Source: Planctomycetia bacterium (GTDB lineage Bacteria > Planctomycetota > Planctomycetia > Pirellulales > Thermoguttaceae). Taken from it: 64,000 nucleotides of DNA. The stretch spans positions 62,001 through 126,000 of the forward strand of contig JAUNBF010000001.1 of the NCBI GenBank assembly GCA_030527185.1, read 5' to 3'. Below, in pieces: positions 2,747 to 61,668 of this stretch (positions are counted from its first letter, which is position 1; each line of letters starts with the position of its first letter). Both the position numbers and the translations under genes were made by a program. Below the pieces are notes generated by a model that worked only from the letters and a program-made list of their open reading frames with translations, had not been told where the DNA came from and ran no database searches.

Positions 2747-3682
2747 TTACAGATGGGCTAAAGCGGCCACCTCACCGCCGTTACGGGTTGCCATATCGCG
2801 ATACGGAAGTAATTCCAGAGATTCGGAGAAAAAGGAGACACTTCCATCACCACGCACAAAAACGGCTCCACCGGGATGACCACTGCCGAAAGGTTGGTAA
2901 TTCATCCGATTTTTCTGATTCATCGGCTGATTGATACGACTTTCCACCACCTTGCAGGAGTAAAAAGGTTGCGTACTGCTTTCCTGCGAGCCGCAAATCC
3001 ATGCCCTGGCATAGTAGGGATACGCGTTGAGTGAGACGCAATCCCGAATTTTCGGTGCGGGAATCTCTCCCAACATCAGTGTGTTACTCAACCCGTCGGA
3101 AACGGTTCCCATCCGAATATCGTCGATGCCCCACGCGAACATCCCGTTATACGGCACGTCCCCGACGACGCACTGCCGAACATGGGTCGTGGGCGTTCTT
3201 CCTTCGTCGGCTGTCCGAACGGCACCGGCAATACCGTTGTAGGTAGTCAGGGCACCGAATTCATGATTCGGCTTGGTGGAAAGGGGATTTTCGCCAAAAC
3301 TGGGGCAGACAAACGCCGGAATGATCGTCGCGGCAATCGGATCGGCTTGATTCAGCAGGGCTACCGCGGCCTGGCCGGTGGCGGTGAAATCGATCTGTTC
3401 GTAAAGAGCGGTCTGCTCCATTTGCGGAAGGATGTAGGCAAAAAAGCTAAATCGGCCATCCCCGTTGTTTTGAGCGTCGCTCCCAGGCGGGAGTTTTTCA
3501 TTGGAAACCGCGGCAAAATTGTGAATGGCCAATCCGATTTGGCGTAAATGGTTGGAACATTGCATACGCCGTGCCGCTTCCCGCGCCTGTTGGACGGCAG
3601 GCAGAAGGAGACCCACCAACATCCCGATAATCGCAATCACCACCAGCAATTCCACCAGGGTAAAACCTCGGTTCCGTTTCAT
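2747..3682 (-). CDS. DUF1559 pseudopilin-like protein (cassette A)
   Basis: A 311-aa planctomycete DUF1559 protein. The N-terminus MKRNRGFTLVELLVV is a type IV prepilin signal: a basic leader, the G-F cleavage site with F to be methylated, E at +5, then a membrane helix. The C-terminus has the H-x9-DG motif (HPGGAVFVRGDG). The start at 3682 has an AAAGGAGG Shine-Dalgarno; a reading from 3739 would bury the prepilin signal. It begins 13 bases after the stop of PEP-CTERM gene A, so the two are probably co-transcribed. Prepilin peptidase processing is the family expectation; the role of the extracellular domain is unknown. Confidence 0.9.
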   Translation of the reverse strand: MKRNRGFTLVELLVVIAIIGMLVGLLLPAVQQAREAARRMQCSNHLRQIGLAIHNFAAVSNEKLPPGSDAQNNGDGRFSFFAYILPQMEQTALYEQIDFTATGQAAVALLNQADPIAATIIPAFVCPSFGENPLSTKPNHEFGALTTYNGIAGAVRTADEGRTPTTHVRQCVVGDVPYNGMFAWGIDDIRMGTVSDGLSNTLMLGEIPAPKIRDCVSLNAYPYYARAWICGSQESSTQPFYSCKVVESRINQPMNQKNRMNYQPFGSGHPGGAVFVRGDGSVSFFSESLELLPYRDMATRNGGEVAALAHL

Positions 3683-3695
3683 AAAACCTCCTTTT

Positions 3696-6379
3696 TCAGC
3701 GTCCCATTTTTCGGGAGCATTTTGTCCAAAAACGTGCAAGGCACCATCCCAACAACAGCAAAAGCCCTGTGGCAGGTTCCGGCACTCCCGTCGCGGAGGT
3801 GAAAACCAACAGTTCGTTTCCCTCCACGCGGTAATTCCACGTGTAATCGGCCAGAAAATCGGCGGCCAGAAGGTTCAGCGAATCAAAAATTCCCGTTCCT
3901 GTCCAGGTCGCTACCAAATAATCTTTTCCCTCCTCCACCCAAAAATCGTCCTCAGCCGTCAGGAAAAGTTCCGACAGGGTTAAATCGCCAAAAACGTCCA
4001 TCGGGTCTCGGTCCAGATTCACCTGAACCAGACCGCCCGACTGGAGAAGATCGATCGCATTTTCCCGACTGCCGATCGTTTGAGCCTGAAACGTCCCATT
4101 TTCCACCGTCAACGTCAACGGCACGCTACTTTCCGACGAAACCGTGGCAACATTCAACATCCCGGCCAAATAGGTCTCGGAAGTATCGTCATGGTACGTA
4201 AATGTCTGGTTTTTCCAGGTGAAATCGTGCGACAAAACCAAATTTTCCACCGAAAGAACAGGACTGTTTCCGCCTGCCAGAGTTCCCGCTGCCAAAACAG
4301 CATCGACGCCCGCCACCCGAACGGTATCGAGAGTTTGCGAGGCGGTCAGGAAAGCTCGGGAATTGCCATCCGCCAAGATCAACGTCGCGCCACTCCCCAA
4401 TGCGTTTTCCGCCGTGGCAAAGAGGTTGGAGTCATACGCCACACTCCATGTCCCGGTAAAGGGGTTGTTGGCACACTGCACCGAAACGGCAGAATCACTG
4501 CGGAAATTTTCGCCCGTTCGGCAGGCAATATGAATCGTCCCTTCCCCCTCCACGGTTGCTTCCAGATTCATCTTACGCTGGTTCCCTGTCGAGGAATTTC
4601 CACGAATTACCCCTTCCGCTCCTTTTTCGACCACCAGTTTTCCCCGCAATGAAAGCGTTTCTGTTCCACCAATAACCAGGGCACCATTTCCCAAATAGAG
4701 CGTCGCGTCGCCCATATTCAAATTCCCTGTCAATCGCATCGTGGCGTAGGTGCTTCCAAAAGAACTTCCATACGTTTCGCACAACGTTCCATCCGGGTTG
4801 TAGCCAACATAAAGGGCTTTTCCACCAAAAGTTCCCGCAACATCGATGTAGGAAGTATCTCGTGTCCCATTGACTTCGGTGTAAGTGACGAAATACGACC
4901 CGTCAGCGTCATCCCATGCGGTTGTCGTGCCGCCAGTGAGCGAATGCCATGTTGGTGTTCCCGAATCGGTCAAGGTATAATATGTATGTCCCAACGTTTC
5001 TGCCGTTCCCGCGTACAGCGTATTTCCCACCACGGCCTTTTGATAATTTTCCAGCCCGGTTCCCAGCGTAACGTTGTCATAACCGGAGGCCGTTCCGGTC
5101 GCTCGAAGAATGGAATAAACTTTTCCACTGTCAGCAATCGCTTCGGCAGGGGTGACGGTCAGGGAAGTCACGGCGACATTCCCATCCACATCCAAAAACT
5201 GCCCCTGATTCCAGTCCAACGAAAGCGTCCCACCCGCGACGGCATAATTTCCCGTCATGGCAAGTTTTCCCACGGTACCGGCATAACCGCGCAGCGTGCC
5301 AACTTTTTGAACCAGGTGGATCGGTTTCCCACTTTCCCCCAGTGTCGCGAAAGCCAGATTGCCGGATTGAGTGCCTTCACCGCCAGCCGTCAGCGTTATT
5401 CCTGTGGTGGAGAGGTTTCGGATATTTCGTGCGGAAATCGTTTTGGAAGTTCCTGTTACCGTTCCATAAAAAGAATAATCCTCACACAACGACCAGGTGT
5501 CCTTAATCGTGGCGGTGTAGTTGTTCGCAATGGTAAACGTCGTCCCGGTAGCGGTGATGGCAAGGTTTTGCAACGTCTGGCTGGAGAAGAGAACCACTTT
5601 CGCTCCTGTCCCCGCCAGTTCCAGACTGGAATCTGCCCCGAGGCCATTGGTGTACTGTCCCAGGGTACTCGACGTTCCGAGATAGAGCCAGCCATTGGAA
5701 TGGACTTTCCAGGTGCCGGAAAAGGTGTTGTTCGCACGTATGATTTCCACCTGCCCCGCATTCGCTCCATCGGTTCCCGCACTGGTGATGTTCAAAACCG
5801 CGTCTTTCCCACCGGAAATGGTTGAGGCCACTCGAAAAGTCAAATGGTCATTGGTTTTGACCGAACGAAATTCTCCATTGGCACCTTCCGCGACAAGGAT
5901 GTTACCGTTCAATTGGAGTGTTGGACTGTCGGCCGTGGAGGAGGGGGCCAACGCTCCATTCCCCAGATATAACGTTTCGACCGTGGCCAGACTTTCCTGA
6001 ATCCGAAATCGGGATTTCATGCCAGCGACGGCTCCATAATCCTCCAGAAGGTTGCCCGTAAAAGGATCGTACCCGACATAAAGGGCGCTCCCCGGAAATG
6101 TGGCGTTGTTTCCAGGCGGTGTCAGAAGAGCGGTGCCTTGGGAATTGTAAACGTAGAATTTCCCTGAGGGATCGGCGGAAGCTCCTGAAATCGTTCCTCC
6201 TGCCGTTGAATGCCAGGTGCCGCCCCAGGAAATGGTACTCCAACCAGAGCTGTTGTCATAGTTCAGATAGTAACTTCCCTCAGCCCAGCCCACTTTCGGC
6301 AAAAGTAGTCCCAATCCCAACCCAAAAAAGAGTCCACATGTTAATATAGGCGGGGGGGGGGGTATAGATGACTTTTCAT
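3696..6379 (-). CDS. PEP-CTERM surface protein A, autotransporter-like repeats, frame interrupted by C11 tract
   Basis: A secreted protein of about 890 aa with many short Thr/Gly/Ser beta-strand repeats, like passenger domains of autotransporters. It ends in a PEP-CTERM sorting signal: GVPEPATG, a hydrophobic helix, then a basic tail. The likely start is ATG 6379, with AAGGAG eight bases upstream and about 39 bases after the predicted transcription start. Between that ATG and the signal-peptide core lies an 11-C tract. At 11 the ATG frame reaches a stop almost at once; 9 or 12 would join it to the long frame, giving MKSHLYPPPP plus a Leu/Gly-rich signal core. The uninterrupted frame can otherwise start only at 6422, which touches the -10 box and would not be on the transcript. 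So the gene reads as phase OFF, or the tract is miscounted. Exosortase processing is expected from the family; no exosortase is in the window. Confidence 0.8.
6352..6362 (-). repeat. C11 mononucleotide tract in PEP-CTERM gene A
   Basis: Eleven G on the plus strand (C on the coding strand), beginning in the sixth codon after ATG 6379 and just before the signal-peptide hydrophobic core. The length is out of frame by one; 9 or 12 would be in frame. Confidence 0.9.
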
Positions 6380-6424
6380 GGTTTTTCTCCTTCCAAAAAT
6401 ACCCGAAATGGCGACACTTCATTC

Positions 6425-6453
6425 ATTATAAATCTGCTATTTCCATTTGTCAA
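6425..6453 (-). promoter_or_regulatory. Sigma70-type promoter of gene A
   Basis: Read on the minus strand: TTGACA (6453-6448), a 17-base spacer, TATAAT (6430-6425), a full consensus match. The transcript should begin near 6418, so translation must start downstream, which favours ATG 6379. Confidence 0.75.
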
Positions 6454-6514: not shown

Positions 6515-6542
6515 TTGCAAAATAAATTTTTTGGGTTATAAT
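6515..6542 (+). promoter_or_regulatory. Promoter of gene B
   Basis: GTTGCAA at the -35 position (TTGCAA 6515-6520), a 16-base spacer, and TATAAT 6537-6542. The same GTTGCA...TTATAAT layout precedes PEP-CTERM genes D and E. Confidence 0.6.
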
Positions 6543-6590: not shown

Positions 6591-8778
6591 ATGAAAAAAC
6601 ATCTATTTTACCCCCCCCCCGACTTTAGCTTTTTTAGCTGTTTTCTGGGGTGGGATTCTTCTAACTGCTTCCTCAAGCTGGTCGCAAACGACGATTTCTT
6701 CGGGAACAACGGTCCATAGTTCTACGGTCTCTTTTCCTGTGACGGTGGAATCGGGTGGGACATTATCTCTGAACCAGAGCAATGTTGGAACAACTTCCGA
6801 CAGACTGACGATTTCCGGCACGGGAAATGGACAAACTTCCTCTGGCGTTCCATTCGGCGCGATTTACTCCACCTCCTATCTGGGCATGAACCAGGGAATC
6901 TTTGCGGCAACGCACATCGACGGTTCTGCCAGCGTTTTGAGTACCCAGCGTCTCCGTTTTCAGGGAGAAGTCACCGGGGGAATCCTCCATACCTACGCTT
7001 CGGCAGGTGAGAATCCTGAAGTTCACGCGGGTTATGCCAGTGCTTTTGCAATCGACCAACTGGTCGTGGAATTGGGAAATTTCACGTTCCACGGTTCGGA
7101 TGGAACGAACAACAATACCTCGCAGGATCATATCTTTTACGATGGTATTCTGGTGAAAAATGGCGGGTATCTCCGTTTGTGGCACCAGAATCAGTTGAAT
7201 CTTTATGCGGACGATGCCAAAACGACGCTGGCAACGATCACGCTCGAAAATGGAGCCAGCTTCCTTTCGCAAGGGGACATCCCAAATTCCTTTGCCGGAA
7301 ATCTGGTGGTGGCAGCGAATGCGACGGGATATATCAATTTTATTAGACAGCTCACGATGACGGCTGGAACAATTTCAGGAGCGTTCCAGAAAGAAGGTAC
7401 GGCGGAGCTGACTTTGGGAAAGGATGTTTCGTGGGTGGGAAGCCTGACGATTGTTAATGGAACGGTTCGATTTCAATCCGGTTCGACATTTTCTGGAACA
7501 ATTCAGACGAGAACCACGGAAACTACGGCGGGTGTTCTGGCACTGGAGCAGGGGAGTAGCGTCACACTGACCGAGAACAGCACGATTTATCGCATGGGAG
7601 CGTTTTCAGGAGCCATGACGGTGGCGGCTGGAAAAACAGTGACACTCTCCGGGGTGAGTACCACGAATACGGCCGATCCAGGAACCTTGACGCTTCAAAG
7701 CGGTTCGATATTGGCCATTCCAAACAGTACCGCGACAACGCTCAATGCCAATCTTGCCTTGGCGGGAAACGCGACGCTCAACGCGGGGAACGGTTCCCAA
7801 CTCACGACCGAAGATGTCTCTGGGAATTATACGCTGACGATTAGCAACAACGGACAGCCCGCGACGTCCTGGTCGGTGGGAGATGTGAATCTGGAAAAAT
7901 TGCAGATGGTGAATTCGATTGCGGTGACGGCCGATTCGGTTGCCGCGTCGGTGGTTTTCTACAATTCGCATTCGCTGACGATTCGTGAAAATGGCTCACT
8001 TTTGCTCGGAAGCGATGGAATACAAAAAGTAGGAACCAATGTTGCTGGAACCTGTAACGTGATTCTGGGGAATGGTACGACGGTCGGATTAAAATCGGGC
8101 GTTTCGACAGCCACCGTCCAAAATATGGATATTAAAGGAACGACGGATGCCATTTTTACGCAGCTTTCGGGAGCGGCGACGTTTGATTTGAACGACGGGG
8201 AAACGCTCTACTGGAAGAGCCAGATTTCCGGTGGCGGTTCGTTGACCAAAACAGGTGCGGGAACGTTGTCGTTGAGTGGCCGCCAAAATTCTCTCTCGCA
8301 GATGACGCTTTCCGAAGGGAGGACGGTTTTGGCAGGTGATTACACGTTGACCAACGGTTTGACGCTGGCGGAATCGGCTATTCTGGAAGCGGATGGCGTG
8401 GTCGACATGACAGGAAATTTTGCGGTTGATGGCCGTTTGGAAATGACGCTCAACGTCGACGGTGGAGATTTGTGGAATGTGGATGGCGACGTCTCGTTTG
8501 GGGACGACTCCAGCCTGTTCATCGATCTGACGGGCGAGGTATTCAGCGGTGGTTTCTATCCCTTTTTAGAGACGGACGGAGCGATCACCGGTTGGGAAAA
8601 TCTTTCCGTTGATTTTTCGCAACAGGCAGCTTATTATTTGCTGCCGGAGATATATGCGGTGAATGGTTCGCTGGGATTTCGGGTCGATTCGGCCGCTGTG
8701 CCGGAACCGTCCACGGGAGTGTTGTTCCTCCTGTTCGTTGCCGCAGGAGGTTGGTATTTCCGTTCCAGGCGTGGTTAA
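6591..8778 (+). CDS. PEP-CTERM surface protein B, autotransporter-like, frame interrupted by C10 tract
   Basis: A secreted protein of about 728 aa when read through. ATG 6591 lies about 42 bases after the predicted transcription start and begins MKKHLFYPPP, followed by a 10-C tract. In the assembled sequence this frame misses the signal core. One base fewer (9) or two more (12) joins it to a clear hydrophobic segment (LAFLAVFWGGILL) and the long downstream frame, which is otherwise startless until ATG 6739. The body has beta-strand repeats, including a passenger-type repeat (LTKTGAGTLSLSG). It ends AVPEPSTG, hydrophobic helix, RSRRG: a PEP-CTERM signal. Two DUF1559 genes follow. It is divergent from gene A and, like it, appears OFF as assembled. 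Confidence 0.8.
6611..6620 (+). repeat. C10 mononucleotide tract in PEP-CTERM gene B
   Basis: Ten C directly after codon 6 of the predicted start, immediately ahead of the signal-peptide core. In frame with 9 or 12, out of frame at 10. Confidence 0.9.
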
Positions 8779-37210: not shown

Positions 37211-37239
37211 TTGACAAATAAAAAAAGTTTTAGTATAAT
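37211..37239 (+). promoter_or_regulatory. Consensus promoter of gene C
   Basis: TTGACA 37211-37216, 17-base spacer, TATAAT 37234-37239: a full sigma70 consensus. Transcription should start near 37246, ahead of the leader frame with the C tract. Confidence 0.85.
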
Positions 37240-37306: not shown

Positions 37307-37378
37307 ATGAAAAATTTCCCTATATTACCCCCCCCCCCCCGGCTTGTTCAGGATTACCCAGAATGGGCATTTTGGTAG
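37307..37378 (+). CDS. Leader frame with C13 tract upstream of gene C
   Basis: A 23-codon frame beginning MKNFPILPPPP behind a strong GGAGGT site, ending just before the start of PEP-CTERM gene C. Its N-terminus resembles those of genes A and B (Met-Lys, a few residues, polyproline from a C tract). At 13 C it terminates; at 11 or 14 C it would run in frame into gene C without a stop, adding about 35 residues ahead of the signal peptide. It may be a leader that controls gene C, or an alternative start. Confidence 0.4.
   Translation: MKNFPILPPPPRLVQDYPEWAFW
37328..37340 (+). repeat. C13 mononucleotide tract in the gene C leader
   Basis: The longest homopolymer in the window, inside the leader frame, about 80 bases after the predicted transcription start. 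Confidence 0.9.
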
Positions 37379-41235: not shown

Positions 41236-41291
41236 AAGAAGGTGAGTGGGAACTGACCTTCTGGAAAAATTTTTTAGCAAAGGTGAATGTC

Positions 41292-44195
41292 ATGCGAAGA
41301 AGTCGTCAAACTGTACTCCTCCTGCTGTTTTGCGGATGGATGGTAAGTGTGGGGAATTCGGAAATTGTAACGTGGAACAATACTTCCACGACAAGTGGAC
41401 AACTTTGGACAACCACGTCTAACTGGTCGCCAGCGCAGGTGCCTGCTGCGGGTGATGCCGTGACGATTGCCAATGGCGGAAAGGTCGATTTGGGAACGGG
41501 GGGAACGTATAACGGAAATGTTGCTCTTTCGAGTGGCTCGATTGTGGCCGATAACCCCGGAGGTGATGTTTTCTATGTTATGCCAGAGAGTCTCACCATG
41601 ACGGGTGGAACGGTCGATCTGAACGTAAAACGTTTTCTGCTGGGGACTTCCGGCACAACGACCAGTACGATCAGCGGCGGAACGTTTACCTACCAACATA
41701 GTGGCGGAACGGCAAACGGTTCCATGCGTGTGGGGGTGATCTGGGATGGAGCAACGCAAACGACCAATGATGTAAACGCTACATTGAATGTCGTGGGGAA
41801 CGGTACTGCTTTCAACGTCGATCGACTGGTCGTGGGAAATAAGAATGGCGGGACTGGGAGCGTGACGGCAGCGGTGGTGATTGGAGATTCCGCAAAGGCC
41901 ACTCTGAAAAACAATGCGGGGGATCAATACGCTCTCCTTATCGGCCATAACGCCACAGGAAGTGTGACAGTGAAGGATTCCGCAAGTCTGACCGTCGGCG
42001 GAACCATTATGTTAGGAATGTCTTCAGGAAGTGGTACTTTTACGCTTCAGGACAGTGGAACGCTCAACGCCAATAACCTTACGATAAGCAGTATCGGCAC
42101 TTACAACCAGACCGGAGGAACGGCAACTATTCAAAACTGGTCGTTTAGCGGGGGGGGGGTATTTAGTCAAACTGGAGGAACTGTGACGCTTGGTACAACT
42201 GGAACCTCAGCCAGTTCGATTTCCGTTTTGGGAGAAAATACGCTTTTTCATGTGAATGCAAGTGGAATTTTTAACATTGGCGGAGACAAGCCGACTGATA
42301 AAACGGATATTTCTTCGTATGCGAATTTTACACTTAACAGCGGTGAAGCTCGTTTCAAAGACCAAGTTTATGTGGCCTATAACCGTGCCTATGGCAAGTT
42401 GACGGTGAACGGAGGAAAATTGTCGGCGGTTTACCTGCAATTGTCTTCTGGGGCGGATTATCTGGGAGAAATGGAAGTCCATGGTGGAGAAGTGACCATT
42501 AGTGACTCCATCCGTTTGGGGCGAAACGGCTCGGCTCATTTGGTCATGGATGGTGGAAAAATCACCACTCCGAATTTTTATATCGGTGGATATGAAGTAT
42601 CGACGAGTGAAACGAATGATGGAACAAAATCCGATTCTTCCATGACGCTTTCCGGTGGTGAAGTTTCTGTTGGCTCGATGCTCTATGTGGGTGGTGCGGG
42701 AAAAGGGACGTTGAACATGTCGGCTGGGACTTTGGGTGCCACGAACCTTTATATCGGGCGGTATGCGAATTCCCAAGGGAGTTTGGTGGAGCTTTCCGGC
42801 GGCACTGCGGCCTTTTCCGCTCTTCAGGATGGTACGGGTGGGAGCATTGTTGTGGGTTATGCTGGAGAAGGAACGCTGAAAGTGTCCGGCGGGACGCTGA
42901 ACGCCAATGGTATTTCTATTGGAGAAAGTGCGAATTCCCAGGGAGTTGTCGAACTTTCCGGCGGCAGTACGACCATTTCCACAGTGACGACCACAAATGC
43001 AGATGGCGCAACTCTCACATCACGAGGGATTGTCATCGTAGGACAGGCTGGAAAAGGGACGTTGAAAATCAGCGGAGCGTCGGAAGGAAATGACCGAACG
43101 TATCTCAAAGCCCAGGAAATTCGAGTCGGAGGAAATTCGACAGGGTTAATGGAAATGTCGGGCGGATATGGAAATGCGACTCATCTTTATCTGGGGTATG
43201 CGGCAGGTTCTACAGGATCGTTTAACATGTCGAATGGGGAACTGGAATTGTATAATCTCTACGTGGGACACACTGGGGCAGGAACGTGGAATATGACAGG
43301 GGGAACTCTTTCAACAGACTATCTTTGCGTGGGATTTGCGTCAGGGAGTTCTGGTGTTTTTGATATTTCTGATGGAGATATAACCGTGGGAGCGAATTTC
43401 CGCGTTGGTTTGAATAGTACCGGTAGCGGAACCGTTTCGGGAGGAAGTTTCGATATTAACAACCTGTACATTCAGGGAGCAGCGGGGAAGAATTCGTCGT
43501 TGACCATTGTGGGGGATCAATCCACCTGGAAGACGAACACTTTCAGTATGGTCTACCGGTCTGATCTGAATTTCATTTTCGGCAACGGTGGTTTTTCCAC
43601 GATCGCTTCCAGGGACGTAACGCTTTCTGAAAATGCCACCATTTCGACAGCTATGGAAGTGGAGGGAATTCAGGCACTGAAATCGAAGACGTTTGAATTG
43701 GTGACTGCCAGTGGAACATGGACCAATAACGGAGTGAATTTGGTTGATTCCCGTTATTGGGATGTTTCTCTGGATGGCACCAAAGTGGTGGCAACCTTGC
43801 AGAATTATTTCACCGACTTGCCGGAAACGTCGGTAACAGAAGGGGTGCTTCAGTTGACGGAAGCGAGCGATTCCTTGTTGTTCTACTCCGATATTTTCGA
43901 TCCCACAACGATGGATGCGTTTACCGACTGGTTGGTGGAGAGTTCCGATGATGTGACGTCGGCCACGAGCGGAGAATTGGGAAGCGTGTTGCTGCAATTT
44001 GCGGAGGCGATAGATTTGTTTGCCTTCAATTTTGGAGCGTTTAATCTGCTTCATCCCGACAATCCGGCAGGTTTTGCAGGTCAGCCCAGCGTTCCAGAAC
44101 CGACGACGTGGGGAATGTTATTACTGGGAATATTGGGATTGTGGAAGTGGGGACTACGGAAATCGACACTCCGTTCTGCCAACATTGGTAAATAG
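41292..44195 (+). CDS. PEP-CTERM surface protein D, autotransporter-like repeats
   Basis: A 967-aa secreted protein. The signal peptide is MRRSRQTVLLLLFCGWMVSVG, and ATG 41292 has AAGGTG upstream (a GTG nine bases earlier is also in frame). The body is repeats of about 40 residues such as GKGTLNMSAGTLG, IGRYANSQG and VELSGG; two copies near 42735 and 42915 are also near-identical in DNA. It ends SVPEPTTWG, hydrophobic helix, basic tail. Alone among the six, its homopolymer tract (G10, codons from residue 287) lies mid-gene and is in frame. Slippage there would give a secreted fragment of about 290 residues without the sorting signal. Confidence 0.85.
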   Translation: MRRSRQTVLLLLFCGWMVSVGNSEIVTWNNTSTTSGQLWTTTSNWSPAQVPAAGDAVTIANGGKVDLGTGGTYNGNVALSSGSIVADNPGGDVFYVMPESLTMTGGTVDLNVKRFLLGTSGTTTSTISGGTFTYQHSGGTANGSMRVGVIWDGATQTTNDVNATLNVVGNGTAFNVDRLVVGNKNGGTGSVTAAVVIGDSAKATLKNNAGDQYALLIGHNATGSVTVKDSASLTVGGTIMLGMSSGSGTFTLQDSGTLNANNLTISSIGTYNQTGGTATIQNWSFSGGGVFSQTGGTVTLGTTGTSASSISVLGENTLFHVNASGIFNIGGDKPTDKTDISSYANFTLNSGEARFKDQVYVAYNRAYGKLTVNGGKLSAVYLQLSSGADYLGEMEVHGGEVTISDSIRLGRNGSAHLVMDGGKITTPNFYIGGYEVSTSETNDGTKSDSSMTLSGGEVSVGSMLYVGGAGKGTLNMSAGTLGATNLYIGRYANSQGSLVELSGGTAAFSALQDGTGGSIVVGYAGEGTLKVSGGTLNANGISIGESANSQGVVELSGGSTTISTVTTTNADGATLTSRGIVIVGQAGKGTLKISGASEGNDRTYLKAQEIRVGGNSTGLMEMSGGYGNATHLYLGYAAGSTGSFNMSNGELELYNLYVGHTGAGTWNMTGGTLSTDYLCVGFASGSSGVFDISDGDITVGANFRVGLNSTGSGTVSGGSFDINNLYIQGAAGKNSSLTIVGDQSTWKTNTFSMVYRSDLNFIFGNGGFSTIASRDVTLSENATISTAMEVEGIQALKSKTFELVTASGTWTNNGVNLVDSRYWDVSLDGTKVVATLQNYFTDLPETSVTEGVLQLTEASDSLLFYSDIFDPTTMDAFTDWLVESSDDVTSATSGELGSVLLQFAEAIDLFAFNFGAFNLLHPDNPAGFAGQPSVPEPTTWGMLLLGILGLWKWGLRKSTLRSANIGK
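42150..42159 (+). repeat. G10 mononucleotide tract inside gene D
   Basis: Encodes three glycines plus the first base of a valine codon; in frame as assembled. Confidence 0.9.
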
Positions 44196-48483: not shown

Positions 48484-50492
48484 ATGAACAGAAAAAATTT
48501 GGTATTGGAAATGGCTCTGGCAATGTTAATTTGCGGGGGGGGGGTAATTTACGAGGAGTCTTTGGCACGGACTACTATTGGCAGGGTAGCGCAACCGATG
48601 CGTGGAATACTCCCACGCTGTGGAGTCCGCAAGGTACTCCGGGCACAAGTGATACGATCTTTATCTTCGATAACAAAACTCTCACACTAAAAGGCTCTGA
48701 CAATGTGAACGTGGGTCTTTTTCTGACAGGCCAGACGGGTAGTGCGAGTGCAACAGGATCGGGGACGATCTATGTAACAGAGAACGCAAGTATCAAGACG
48801 AGCAATAATATGGTCGTAGGCCGGAATGCGGCCAAAGGATATTTCTATCTTCAAGGCGGAAGTGTGAATTCAGGTGGCAATTTCTATGTTGGGTTCGCCA
48901 ATGATTTCCGAGAGACAAACTACGGGTATGTCGAACAGACGGGCGGTGATTGGAGCGTGGTTGGCTCGTTGGAAGTGGGTGGGGCCGCACTCGTGAATAA
49001 TTCCTATGGAACCGGAGAGTATCTATTGAAGAATGGGACGGTCTCTACAAAAGATTTCATTGTTGGCTGTCGTGGTGGAGTAGGGACTTTCACTCTGGAA
49101 GGTGGCGAGGTAACGGTTACTAGTGGTAATATGGTGATTGGGCTGTATGAGAATGGTCAAACGGCCACGATGGGTTCGGGAACAGTGAAACAATCTGGCG
49201 GAACTTTAACACTTGGAACGGGTTCGGGAATACTCTATATTGGAGGATATACGCCTTTGAACAACTCCCGGGGAAAAGGGACGTATGAATATAGTGGCGG
49301 GACTCTGAATGTGGGAGAGGTCATTCTGGGAGCATGGTTGGGAGACGGTACGCTGAACGTTACAAACGGTTCTCTGACACTTCCTAAACTCACGGTAGGA
49401 GGGAGTCTTGATTCCGCTTCGGAGTTGAATGTTTCGGGCGGAGAATTGACGGTTCAATCCCTCAATCGTGGAGTGAATCAGTTGACGGTTTCGGGGGATG
49501 GAGTTTTGAATATCGTGGGGAACTATGCCCATCGAGATAATGGTAGCCGGAATGTGGATGTCTCTGGTGGAAAGTTGAACGTGACCGGGCAATTCGATAT
49601 AGCGGGCACAACGGTGCAATTTTCCGGGGGAGAGCATTCGGTTGGACAGTTGAGATCGGTGAGTAGTGGGCTTGCGACGACCTTGAATTTGGTGGGGGAT
49701 GTGAAGCTTCATGTAGGCCGTGTGGCATTTGTTCAGGCCAATGCCGAAACGACGAAAATCAACTGGTACGCAACCTCGGCAGGCTTTCCGACGATTGTCA
49801 GTGCGACGAATGATCCCACGACTTCAGGTTTATCGGATGCGTTTGCGGGTACCCATACGGCCAAAGTGGGGGGCGGCGTAGCTTTGATGAAGGAGAGTGG
49901 CTGGACGTTGTTTTCGGCGATCAAGGAACAGGATAATACCGGGGCATCGGCAAGTAATGTCATCGTGACGGACTCTCATGTCTGGAAAATGGATAAAACC
50001 TGGGACTCTGTGGAAGATAACGGTGATTTGACCAATTTCAAAATCAGCGCATGGCTGGACCCAGCCGCGAAAAGTGGGGAGTTGGAAATCGCGGCCAATA
50101 CTTACGAGACGCTTCGGTTGGAGGAGAGTCGGGAATATGGCTGGATTGAGTTTACGAACAATACCGATTCGCTGCAAAATTATATGATTTCGTTGGAACT
50201 GGTCGGTTTGGATGAGACTTCGACGTTGGAAGCGGTGTTGGCGTGGATGGAGGAAAATGGAGAGGGAAATGTGGAATCGGACGGCGTCAATCATCTGTTG
50301 TTGTCCGGGTTGTCGTTGATGTCGGGGGAGACGAATTTTCTGGCATGGGATTTTGCGGATTTCAACGCTCTGATGGGCGGAGAGGTGGCGGTGGGATCGG
50401 TCACGGCAATGGCGGTTCCTGAGCCTGCGACGTGGTTTCTGTTGGGATTGGGGTTGATGGGACTTTTCTGGAGCCGAAAACGAAAATCATAA
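48484..50492 (+). CDS. PEP-CTERM surface protein E, frame interrupted by G10 tract
   Basis: About 669 aa when read through. ATG 48484 has GAGAGG upstream and starts a signal peptide (MNRKNLVLEMALAMLIC) that runs into a G10 tract. At 10 the frame then leaves the protein and stops after about 50 codons. At 8 or 11 it continues in frame into GGGNLRGVFG and a TDYYWQGS mature start, with a plausible cleavage site. The body has repeats of the gene D type (GTFTLEGGEVTV, YSGGTLNVGEV). It ends AVPEPATWF, hydrophobic helix, SRKRKS. As assembled it reads OFF. A DUF1559 gene, an HzsA-related gene and glutamate decarboxylase follow on the same strand. Confidence 0.8.
48535..48544 (+). repeat. G10 mononucleotide tract in gene E
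   Basis: At the end of the signal-peptide core. In frame at 8 or 11, out of frame at 10. Confidence 0.9.
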
Positions 50493-59317: not shown

Positions 59318-61668
59318 TTAAAAAGCCTGTTTTCCACGTCGCCAACAGCCCAAAGCCACCAATCCCAACGCCAGCAACAACCAACTCCCAGGTTCCGGCA
59401 CGGCGGCACGATCCACGCCCAAATAAAGTTGCGTTCCCTCACCCCAGAGGTTGAAATAATGCTCCTGCCAGCCCGAAAGCCAGGTCGAAACATCCAGACT
59501 GGCCAGGTTGCCAATCGTTCCCACCGCCAATCCATCCAGGGAACTCCAATCCGCGTCCGAATCGATGTTCAGCAACAATCCCCCCGCCGCCATTTCCAAC
59601 GTCTCAACCGCAAGCGTATCGTATGTATTCGCGTCCAAAATATCGAGTTGCAACTGTCCGCCATCCTGGACAGTCAACTTCTTTCCAGCCGCAAACAGTG
59701 TGTTTCCATAGGGATTCGACTGGTCGCCCGGTGAAAAAATGCCGCCGGTCTCCACTTGCAGAGAGAACGGAACATCCTCATCCAGCGACGAGACCCGCGA
59801 ATCATCCGAACCTGCCACGACGCGAACCGTATCGGTCGTGGTGTAGTTGCCGTTGGTGCCGAGCGAAAATTTTCCGCCAGCCAGGACGACTTCGGAACTT
59901 GCCAGGGTGGTCTCCAAAACCAGCGTCCCACTTTCCACCAACGTCTCTCCGGTGTACGAGAGCGTTCCGGTGAGCGTTTGCGTTCCCGCACCGGTTTTCG
60001 TCAGACCGATCGCATTTTTTACCGTTCCGTTCCACGAATGACTTTCCCCCGCGCGGGTGGCAATCGTCAGCGTCGAGGCCGCACTTCCCGAATTGAGAAT
60101 CGATCCAAAATTTCCGGTAAGTCCCGCGACCGTGGCGGAATGACCGTACAAATCGAGCAGCGACTCCACATGACCATTGTCTTTCACAAACTGAATCACG
60201 CTGTGGGGGGAAAGTGCGTTATCGGCCATCAGTGCCAACCGTGCCGTGGCCGCGTAAGTCGCATTTCCCGCCGCGCCCAGGATGGTGGTGCCGGAATAGT
60301 CGTTTTCAGGATTCGTCAAAACTGCCCAACCGCCATTCCAACAAATCGTCAAATTTCCCGGATTGGCAGAATTGACATCGGAAATTTTTCCATCCAGCAC
60401 CAAATACCCAATATCAGCGCGTTCGCCAGCATGGTCCATCGCATACTGAACCGCATTGGCGAAGGTATTTTCATTGTGTCCCCAGCCAACTTCAATTTTT
60501 CCTCCACCACTGGCAAGCCGGATGTCGTTGTACAGGTGCAGCACCGCGTCCACTCCACCGATACGAGTTCCACCGTTGTTGGAAATGCCGCCATTATTCA
60601 GCGTAATCGTGCCGGTTCCGAAGCAGCCCGAAACGATATTTCCGTCCGCGTCCAGCATCCCACTACTGTTAAACCTGGCCCAGCTCCCCTGAATCACCGT
60701 CCCGGCCGTGTAGGTATTCTCGCCGTTGAGAAGCAAGTGGGCACCTTCCATGCTATGCCCGCCGTTGAGAACCAATTCCAGATTCCCGGTAATTTTGCCA
60801 AAATACGGATTCGTCTGCCCGGTACTCCCTCCGAGCGATAATTGCGATTTCGTCGTCTGGCTATTCGTAATGACCGCATTCTTATTTTGGGTTGTTTGCT
60901 GAAGTTGACCGATCCCCTCATTTTTTCCATTCAGGTCGAAAATGCCACCGTTGATGGTCTGAACACGGCTACTGCTGAGTTGGTTTCCCCCCGTCCCGGT
61001 CAGACGCACCGTCCCCCCTTCCAATATCAGAAAGTGGGCGGAATTCAAGCCGGTCGATTTGTTCAGGTTCAACGTTCCGCTTTTCATCCGAATCGTCGTC
61101 GCTTCGTTGTTGGCAGTTCCTCCCAAAGTCAACGACCCTTCGCCATAATCGACCACGAGCGTCGTGTACTGAATCCCGCCGTTGAAGGTGTTATTCGCCA
61201 TCCCCGTCGGCTTCAGTGTGAGCGTTGCCTTGCTGCTGTCTTTTGTCGAATTCGTAATGTATACCCCCTCACCACTGGCTGTCGATTGTTCGATGGTTCC
61301 CAACGATTCGTTGTGACCGTTCAAGTCGAATTGTCCACCGGTGACGACCAGACTCTCGCCAACCTGGTTTCCGCCGGTGCCCGTAATTTTCACGTTGGCT
61401 CCTGAAATCGTCAGATGGTTGACGACATACTGGCTATCCGTGCGGGCAAATTCGTAGTCGCCAGTGGAGAGCGTCAGATTTTCGACCGGATCGGTACTGT
61501 TATCATAAACCGTCGCTGCCGAAAGAGTCGAAGTGAGAATTACCAAAAGGAGAAAAAAGGAAATCTGAGAAAAGAACCGTTGCCATCTCTCAAAAATGCC
61601 TATTCTGCCCCCCCCCCCGACTTTAACATGCAGGTGACCAACCCATTGCTCTGAATGAACTTGCGCAT
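59318..61668 (-). CDS. PEP-CTERM surface protein F, frame interrupted by G11 tract
   Basis: About 783 aa when read through. ATG 61668 has a strong CGGAGG site and begins MRKFIQSNGLVTCMLKS, followed by the tract. At 11 the frame ends at a stop after a few codons. At 9 or 12 it joins GRIGIFERWQRFF and a strong signal core (ISFFLLLVILTSTLSA). The uninterrupted frame could only begin at a TTG at 61738 with no ribosome site. The body has passenger-type repeats (LTKTGAGTQTLTGTLSYTG) and GGxFDLNGxNE units. It ends AVPEPGSWL, hydrophobic helix, RRGKQAF. As assembled it reads OFF. Confidence 0.8.
61608..61618 (-). repeat. G11 mononucleotide tract in gene F
   Basis: Eleven C on the plus strand (G on the coding strand) between start codon and signal core. 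In frame at 9 or 12. Confidence 0.9.

Follow-up and report, generated by a model that had tools for sequence, protein, structure and literature searches.

Gene A, on the minus strand of the window (the whole stretch of DNA that was analysed, 64,000 nucleotides), is best read as a contingency locus subject to slipped-strand phase variation, with a probability that we place at about 0.83; within-strain switching and expression are inferred. A promoter-like site, a Shine-Dalgarno sequence with its ATG, a C11 tract and a signal-peptide frame followed each other in this order, and the layout recurred in about 90 genes and in sister species. The first-pass annotation had treated this one locus, whereas the genome holds about one hundred of the kind. 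Judged from sequence, slipped-strand errors most likely make surface proteins phase variable here, and do so very widely, in about 100 genes. The features of the gene A region were the following:

6425–6453, minus strand: sigma70-type promoter of gene A (TTGACA-N17-TATAAT), an arrangement shared by two thirds of the sister loci
6420–6422, minus strand: rival ATG of the uninterrupted frame, without a Shine-Dalgarno sequence and predicted to be unused
6387–6394, minus strand: Shine-Dalgarno sequence of gene A (GGAAGGAG), read from the sequence
6377–6379, minus strand: start codon predicted for gene A, 17 nt 5′ of the tract
6352–6362, minus strand: C11 run of gene A, the putative contingency tract, which a length of C9 or C12 would bring into frame
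6338–6344, plus strand: TGTTAA motif at gene A (ATGTTAA on the plus strand; the minus strand reads TTAACAT, 7 nt 3′ of the C tract)
3696–6379, minus strand: gene A, with a signal peptide broken by the tract, a long all-beta region and a C-terminal VPEP followed by a hydrophobic segment and a basic tail
2747–3682, minus strand: gene of a DUF1559/N_methyl protein, immediately downstream of gene A

On the minus strand, the TTGACA box occupied positions 6453–6448 and the TATAAT box positions 6430–6425, with a spacer of exactly 17 bases. Direct reading confirmed the consensus promoter that the first-pass annotation had placed there, with 12 matches out of 12. Five promoter matches with at most one mismatch were present in the whole window, compared to 0.21 expected from shuffled sequences, and two were perfect, including this one. 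The −10 box ended 45 nt 5′ of the ATG at 6379, and GGAAGGAG was found seven bases 5′ of this ATG, which is preceded by the sequence TTGGAAGGAGAAAAACC. Fourteen bases separated the ATG from the C11 tract. With the tract as assembled, translation from 6379 would yield MKSHLYPPPRLY and then stop, after 12 codons; the TAA of the TGTTAA motif (TTAACAT on the minus strand) is the stop codon of this OFF-frame peptide. With C12, the product becomes MKSHLYPPPPPILTCGLFFGLGLGLLLPKVGWA, and with C9 the same minus one proline; either length joins the signal peptide from ATG 6379 to the long ORF. The earlier claim of an ATG with a good Shine-Dalgarno sequence, whose signal peptide needs C9 or C12, was thus borne out by the sequence and its translation.

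The 880 codons located 3′ of the tract were intact. The C-terminus (VPEPATGLLLLLGWCLARFWTKCSRKMGR), where a helix was modelled, may correspond to the tail of PEP-CTERM exosortase substrates (a PEP motif, a transmembrane segment and a basic tail), but without a Pfam match, and no Pfam or NCBIfam match was obtained for gene A. The fold model was all-beta with a C-terminal helix and had poor confidence (mean pLDDT of 57.5). The product looks like a bacterial surface protein. The DUF1559/N_methyl gene that follows probably shares one transcript with gene A.

The genome (4.285 Mb in 174 contigs) has Thermoguttaceae and Planctomycetia MAGs, several from the ruminant gut, as its nearest named relatives. 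It contained 149 C/G runs of at least 9 bases. The run lengths were bimodal, with a gap at 8 (11 runs) and a second peak at 11 (20, 38, 67, 19 and 5 runs of 9, 10, 11, 12 and 13 bases, respectively). A first-order Markov model predicted approximately 5.5 C/G runs of at least 11 bases in the whole genome, as compared to 91 observed in the 1.09 Mb around the tracts, indicating that the tract of gene A is not a chance run. With a homopolymer beyond chance and a tract lying between the start codon and the body of the gene, where one-base changes would switch the frame, gene A has two of the features of a translational simple sequence repeat (SSR) switch; its promoter and Shine-Dalgarno sequence place the start upstream of the tract. 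A/T runs of at least 9 bases were nearly absent (3 in 1.09 Mb, for approximately 68 expected under the Markov model).

Among the 149 tracts, 107 were located at the head of a long ORF (a run no more than 75 nt after a possible start codon, and an ORF of at least 180 codons), the coding strand reading C in 41 and G in 66. A strict set of 88 genes was defined by an ATG start and a Shine-Dalgarno match of at least 4, promoter-spacer tracts being excluded. Restoring the frame in these genes produced hydrophobic export signals: the mean best hydropathy over 12 residues was 2.5, versus 0.8 for the short peptides of the assembled frames. The products of the ON frame carried a PEP motif at their end in 58 of the 88 genes and a DUF1559/N_methyl signature at their start in 19. 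Tract-free DUF1559 paralogues, up to 85% identical, directly follow other genes. The leader of the tract genes is longer by comparison (20–28 residues), and a clean insertion boundary could not be shown. Five tract genes lie inside the window, all of them out of frame as assembled. Apart from gene A, they were as follows:

6591–8778, plus strand: gene B, a divergent PEP-CTERM gene with ATG at 6591 and C10 at 6611–6620, which needs two more bases or one less
6515–6542, plus strand: promoter-like site of gene B (TTGCAA-N16-TATAAT)
37,328–37,340, plus strand: C13 tract of another surface-protein gene (ATG at 37,307), one base short
48,535–48,544, plus strand: G10 tract of a PEP-CTERM gene, after the ATG at 48,484, one base short
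61,608–61,618, minus strand: G11 tract (coding strand) of a PATR/PEP-CTERM gene, after the ATG at 61,668, one base short

Gene B passed the PF07589 profile. A perfect TTGACA-N17-TATAAT was present at 37,211–37,239, before the C13 surface-protein gene.

Ten further tracts in the genome had a different position. They formed promoter spacers, 14 or 15 bases long as assembled, that separate a TTGACA (or TTGACT) box from a TANAAT-like −10 box. These tracts were poly-G, and for most of them an ORF started within approximately 80 nt downstream. They would act as porA-type promoter switches, a second, independent switching geometry. The tract of gene A does not fall into this category, as it is not inside the −35/−10 spacer but 62 nt downstream of the −10 box. 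The ten poly-G spacers (contigs C14, C16, C25, C56, C60, C78, C92, C119, C129 and C138) were mostly located 5′ of surface-protein genes.

In the strict set, 10 genes were in frame as assembled, 61 were one base short and 17 were two bases short. The excess of the one-base-short class (p of approximately 5e-12 against equal thirds) was seen for almost all tract lengths between 9 and 13. It has to be counted against slippage, as random slippage does not predict it, and it was not shared by the sister genome G001, where the strict tally was 5 genes ON, 9 one short and 12 two short. The excess could come from a contraction-biased slippage starting from ON ancestors, from an under-call of homopolymers or from recoding. 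The under-call would make the OFF state an artefact: if the assembly misses one base in long homopolymers, most genes are really ON, and a systematic error of this kind would yield exactly such an excess (the sequencing platform is not known). We consider this unlikely without being able to set it aside. Seven tracts of 9–12 bases deep inside long ORFs were in frame as assembled, which argues against a general under-call. Moreover, the tract lengths span 9–13, with 27 of the 88 genes not one base short, and an under-call would alter the tally of ON and OFF genes but not the switch architecture that recurs in the sister genomes. A G10 run at 42,150–42,159 was found deep within the uninterrupted PEP-CTERM-like ORF 41,283–44,195, in frame as assembled.

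Recoding would have a ribosome slip by −1 on the C/G run, or the RNA polymerase add a base, leading to a constant low level of in-frame product. A −1 slip would restore exactly the frame of the 61 genes, yet we hold this reading to be quite improbable. The frame offset is not kept in the sister genome, as would be expected of a frameshift gene, some tract genes are ON as assembled, and recoding cannot act on the ten tracts that are promoter spacers.

It has also to be considered that gene A is ON as assembled. As the first-pass annotation had stated, the ATG at 6422 opens an uninterrupted frame right behind the −10 box; this frame has 908 codons. Translation from this ATG would produce MKCRHFGYFWKEK peptides and an N-terminal signal region of 47 residues. 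However, the ATG begins at the third base past the perfect −10 box, with only GA in between, and the 20 bases located 5′ of it (AAATAGCAGATTTATAATGA) do not include a Shine-Dalgarno sequence. There is also a third ATG, at 6426, which shares bases with the −10 box and starts a frame of merely 16 codons. The other tract genes gave no support to a start of the 6422 type: not one of the 78 genes that are OFF in the strict set had, upstream of the tract, an in-frame rival ATG with a Shine-Dalgarno sequence of at least 4 matching bases, so that such a start cannot be the general reading. In 86 comparable genes, we searched for promoters in the 160 nt located 5′ of the pre-tract ATG. A sigma70-like promoter (up to 2 mismatches) preceded the pre-tract Shine-Dalgarno sequence and ATG in 66% of them, compared to 2.2% for the shuffled sequences, and a perfect TTGACA-N17-TATAAT was present in 15 of the 86 genes, compared to 0 of 1720 shuffles. 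The −10 box mostly ended 40–84 nt 5′ of the pre-tract ATG. In addition, a tract-free homologue of gene A in G001, 41–42% identical, begins with MKKIALIAVLGIWGVLCGTSQTWA, a plain signal peptide of 24 residues. This is the length of leader expected from a 6379-like start, and it is at odds with the long N-terminal region from 6422. We therefore regard translation from 6422 as very improbable. Altogether, the placement of the promoter, the lack of a rival ATG with a Shine-Dalgarno sequence and the tract-free homologue indicate that, as far as can be predicted from the DNA, translation very probably begins at ATG 6379 and gene A is OFF as assembled. The first-pass annotation had reached the same conclusion, which is supported, but in stating that the promoter forces the start upstream of the tract it went too far, as no transcript start has been mapped, and OFF describes the state of one metagenome consensus. 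Although the assembled start of gene A is out of frame, a pseudogene disabled for good by its tract is scarcely tenable, with the codons after the tract intact, the promoter and Shine-Dalgarno sequence preserved in tract genes, and 90 of the 107 tract genes implied to be dead yet keeping a long open frame.

We propose that gene A works as follows. Transcription would start near position 6418 and translation at 6379. Slipped-strand errors during replication would alter the length of the tract: 9 or 12 C would lead to the export of a surface protein that carries a signal peptide and a PEP-CTERM-like tail, and 10 or 11 C to no export. Given about 100 such switches, independent of one another, many combinations of exposed surface proteins and pilin-like (DUF1559) proteins would be present in a population.

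The abundance of tracts varied widely among relatives. There were 129 runs of at least 10 bases here. Seven congeneric species had 48, 5, 1, 30, 20, 8 and 25 of them, and most of the order had fewer than 10. The layout of the tracts was the same in G001. Orthologue pairs with the sister species were retained when they were at least 65% identical and aligned from the N-terminus (n = 11), and the tract length differed in 8 of them. Gene B belongs to this set, with C10 here versus C12 in its orthologue; the homologue of gene A being tract-free, no such difference is demonstrated for gene A. Tracts were also seen at the heads of DUF1559 genes in two other genera, and one sister genome encodes an exosortase.

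MutS_I and MutS_V were absent from the assembly, MutS_I being present in 17 of the 17 relatives tested. The tsaE gene is generally essential. This neighbour of mutS was missing as well and MutL was present, so MutS is probably missing because of a gap in the assembly, which allows no conclusion about a loss of mismatch repair as a cause. In the sister genomes mutS adjoins tsaE, and an exosortase gene is often close (L377–L384).

The oriented TGTTAA beside the tracts is a new feature. Of 147 tracts, 50 had it no more than 20 nt upstream of their G strand, for 0.2 expected. Its reverse complement was never seen on the same side (0 of 147), and TGTTAA itself was seen once on the other side (1 of 147). 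Typically, the motif lay 3–8 nt before the G strand, often with a TARAAT right behind it, and the orientation-specific presence of TGTTAA extended to at least two genera (17 of 48 tracts in G001, 6 of 8 in G007 and 5 of 5 in G016). It accompanied 17 of 40 tracts with C on the coding strand and 29 of 63 with G; as it is present whichever strand codes, coding cannot explain it. One tentative possibility, on the doubtful side, is that the tract and TGTTAA make up one short DNA module, of which copies are placed at gene 5′ ends in one orientation or the other, or which is the target of a dedicated factor. This hypothesis implies that a planctomycete family spreads and maintains ready-made on/off switches rather than evolving tracts singly. 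No shorter run with the flanks of a tract was found in the 1.09 Mb, a sample chosen around tracts, and when named genomes were searched for the exact pattern of the module, there was no match, the source genome being possibly outside that search.

Most work on SSR phase variation concerns host-adapted pathogens, which have tens of switches. No on-point report of phase variation in Planctomycetes, or in connection with PEP-CTERM, was found in open-licence full texts. If our interpretation is true, gut-type planctomycetes carry about twice the number of switches of pathogenic Neisseria, in which about 40–60 genes are phase variable (PMC7371114), and combine translational with promoter switches for surface proteins of the PEP-CTERM and pilin-like kinds. 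Genome annotations would omit or truncate the tract genes, and the surfaces would be far more variable than thought. Isolates exist for the family (PMC11929135).

As in the opa, hmbR, hpuA and mspA genes of Neisseria and the poly-G loci of Campylobacter, a C/G run (or a short repeat in those systems) is found near the 5′ end of a surface-protein gene, gaining or losing one unit shifts the frame, and the lengths differ between orthologues. Unlike in these bacteria, the run lies mostly between the start codon and the core of the signal peptide, often flanked by the oriented TGTTAA, and the about 100 loci, unlike those of Neisseria, belong to a Planctomycetota genome. The porA and fetA genes of Neisseria vary in phase through a tract in the promoter spacer. 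The ten other tracts described here, not that of gene A, resemble them, and both kinds of tract coexist in one genome. Finally, the tracts are comparable to the homopolymeric regulators described by Orsi et al. 2010 (PMC2831843), in which tracts at gene 5′ ends permit reversible inactivation. In their survey of 99 genomes, a 5′ bias was observed for poly-A/T of 5–8 bases and not for poly-C/G or for runs longer than 8 (PMC2831843), whereas here the C/G runs carry the signal and long A/T runs are the rare ones.
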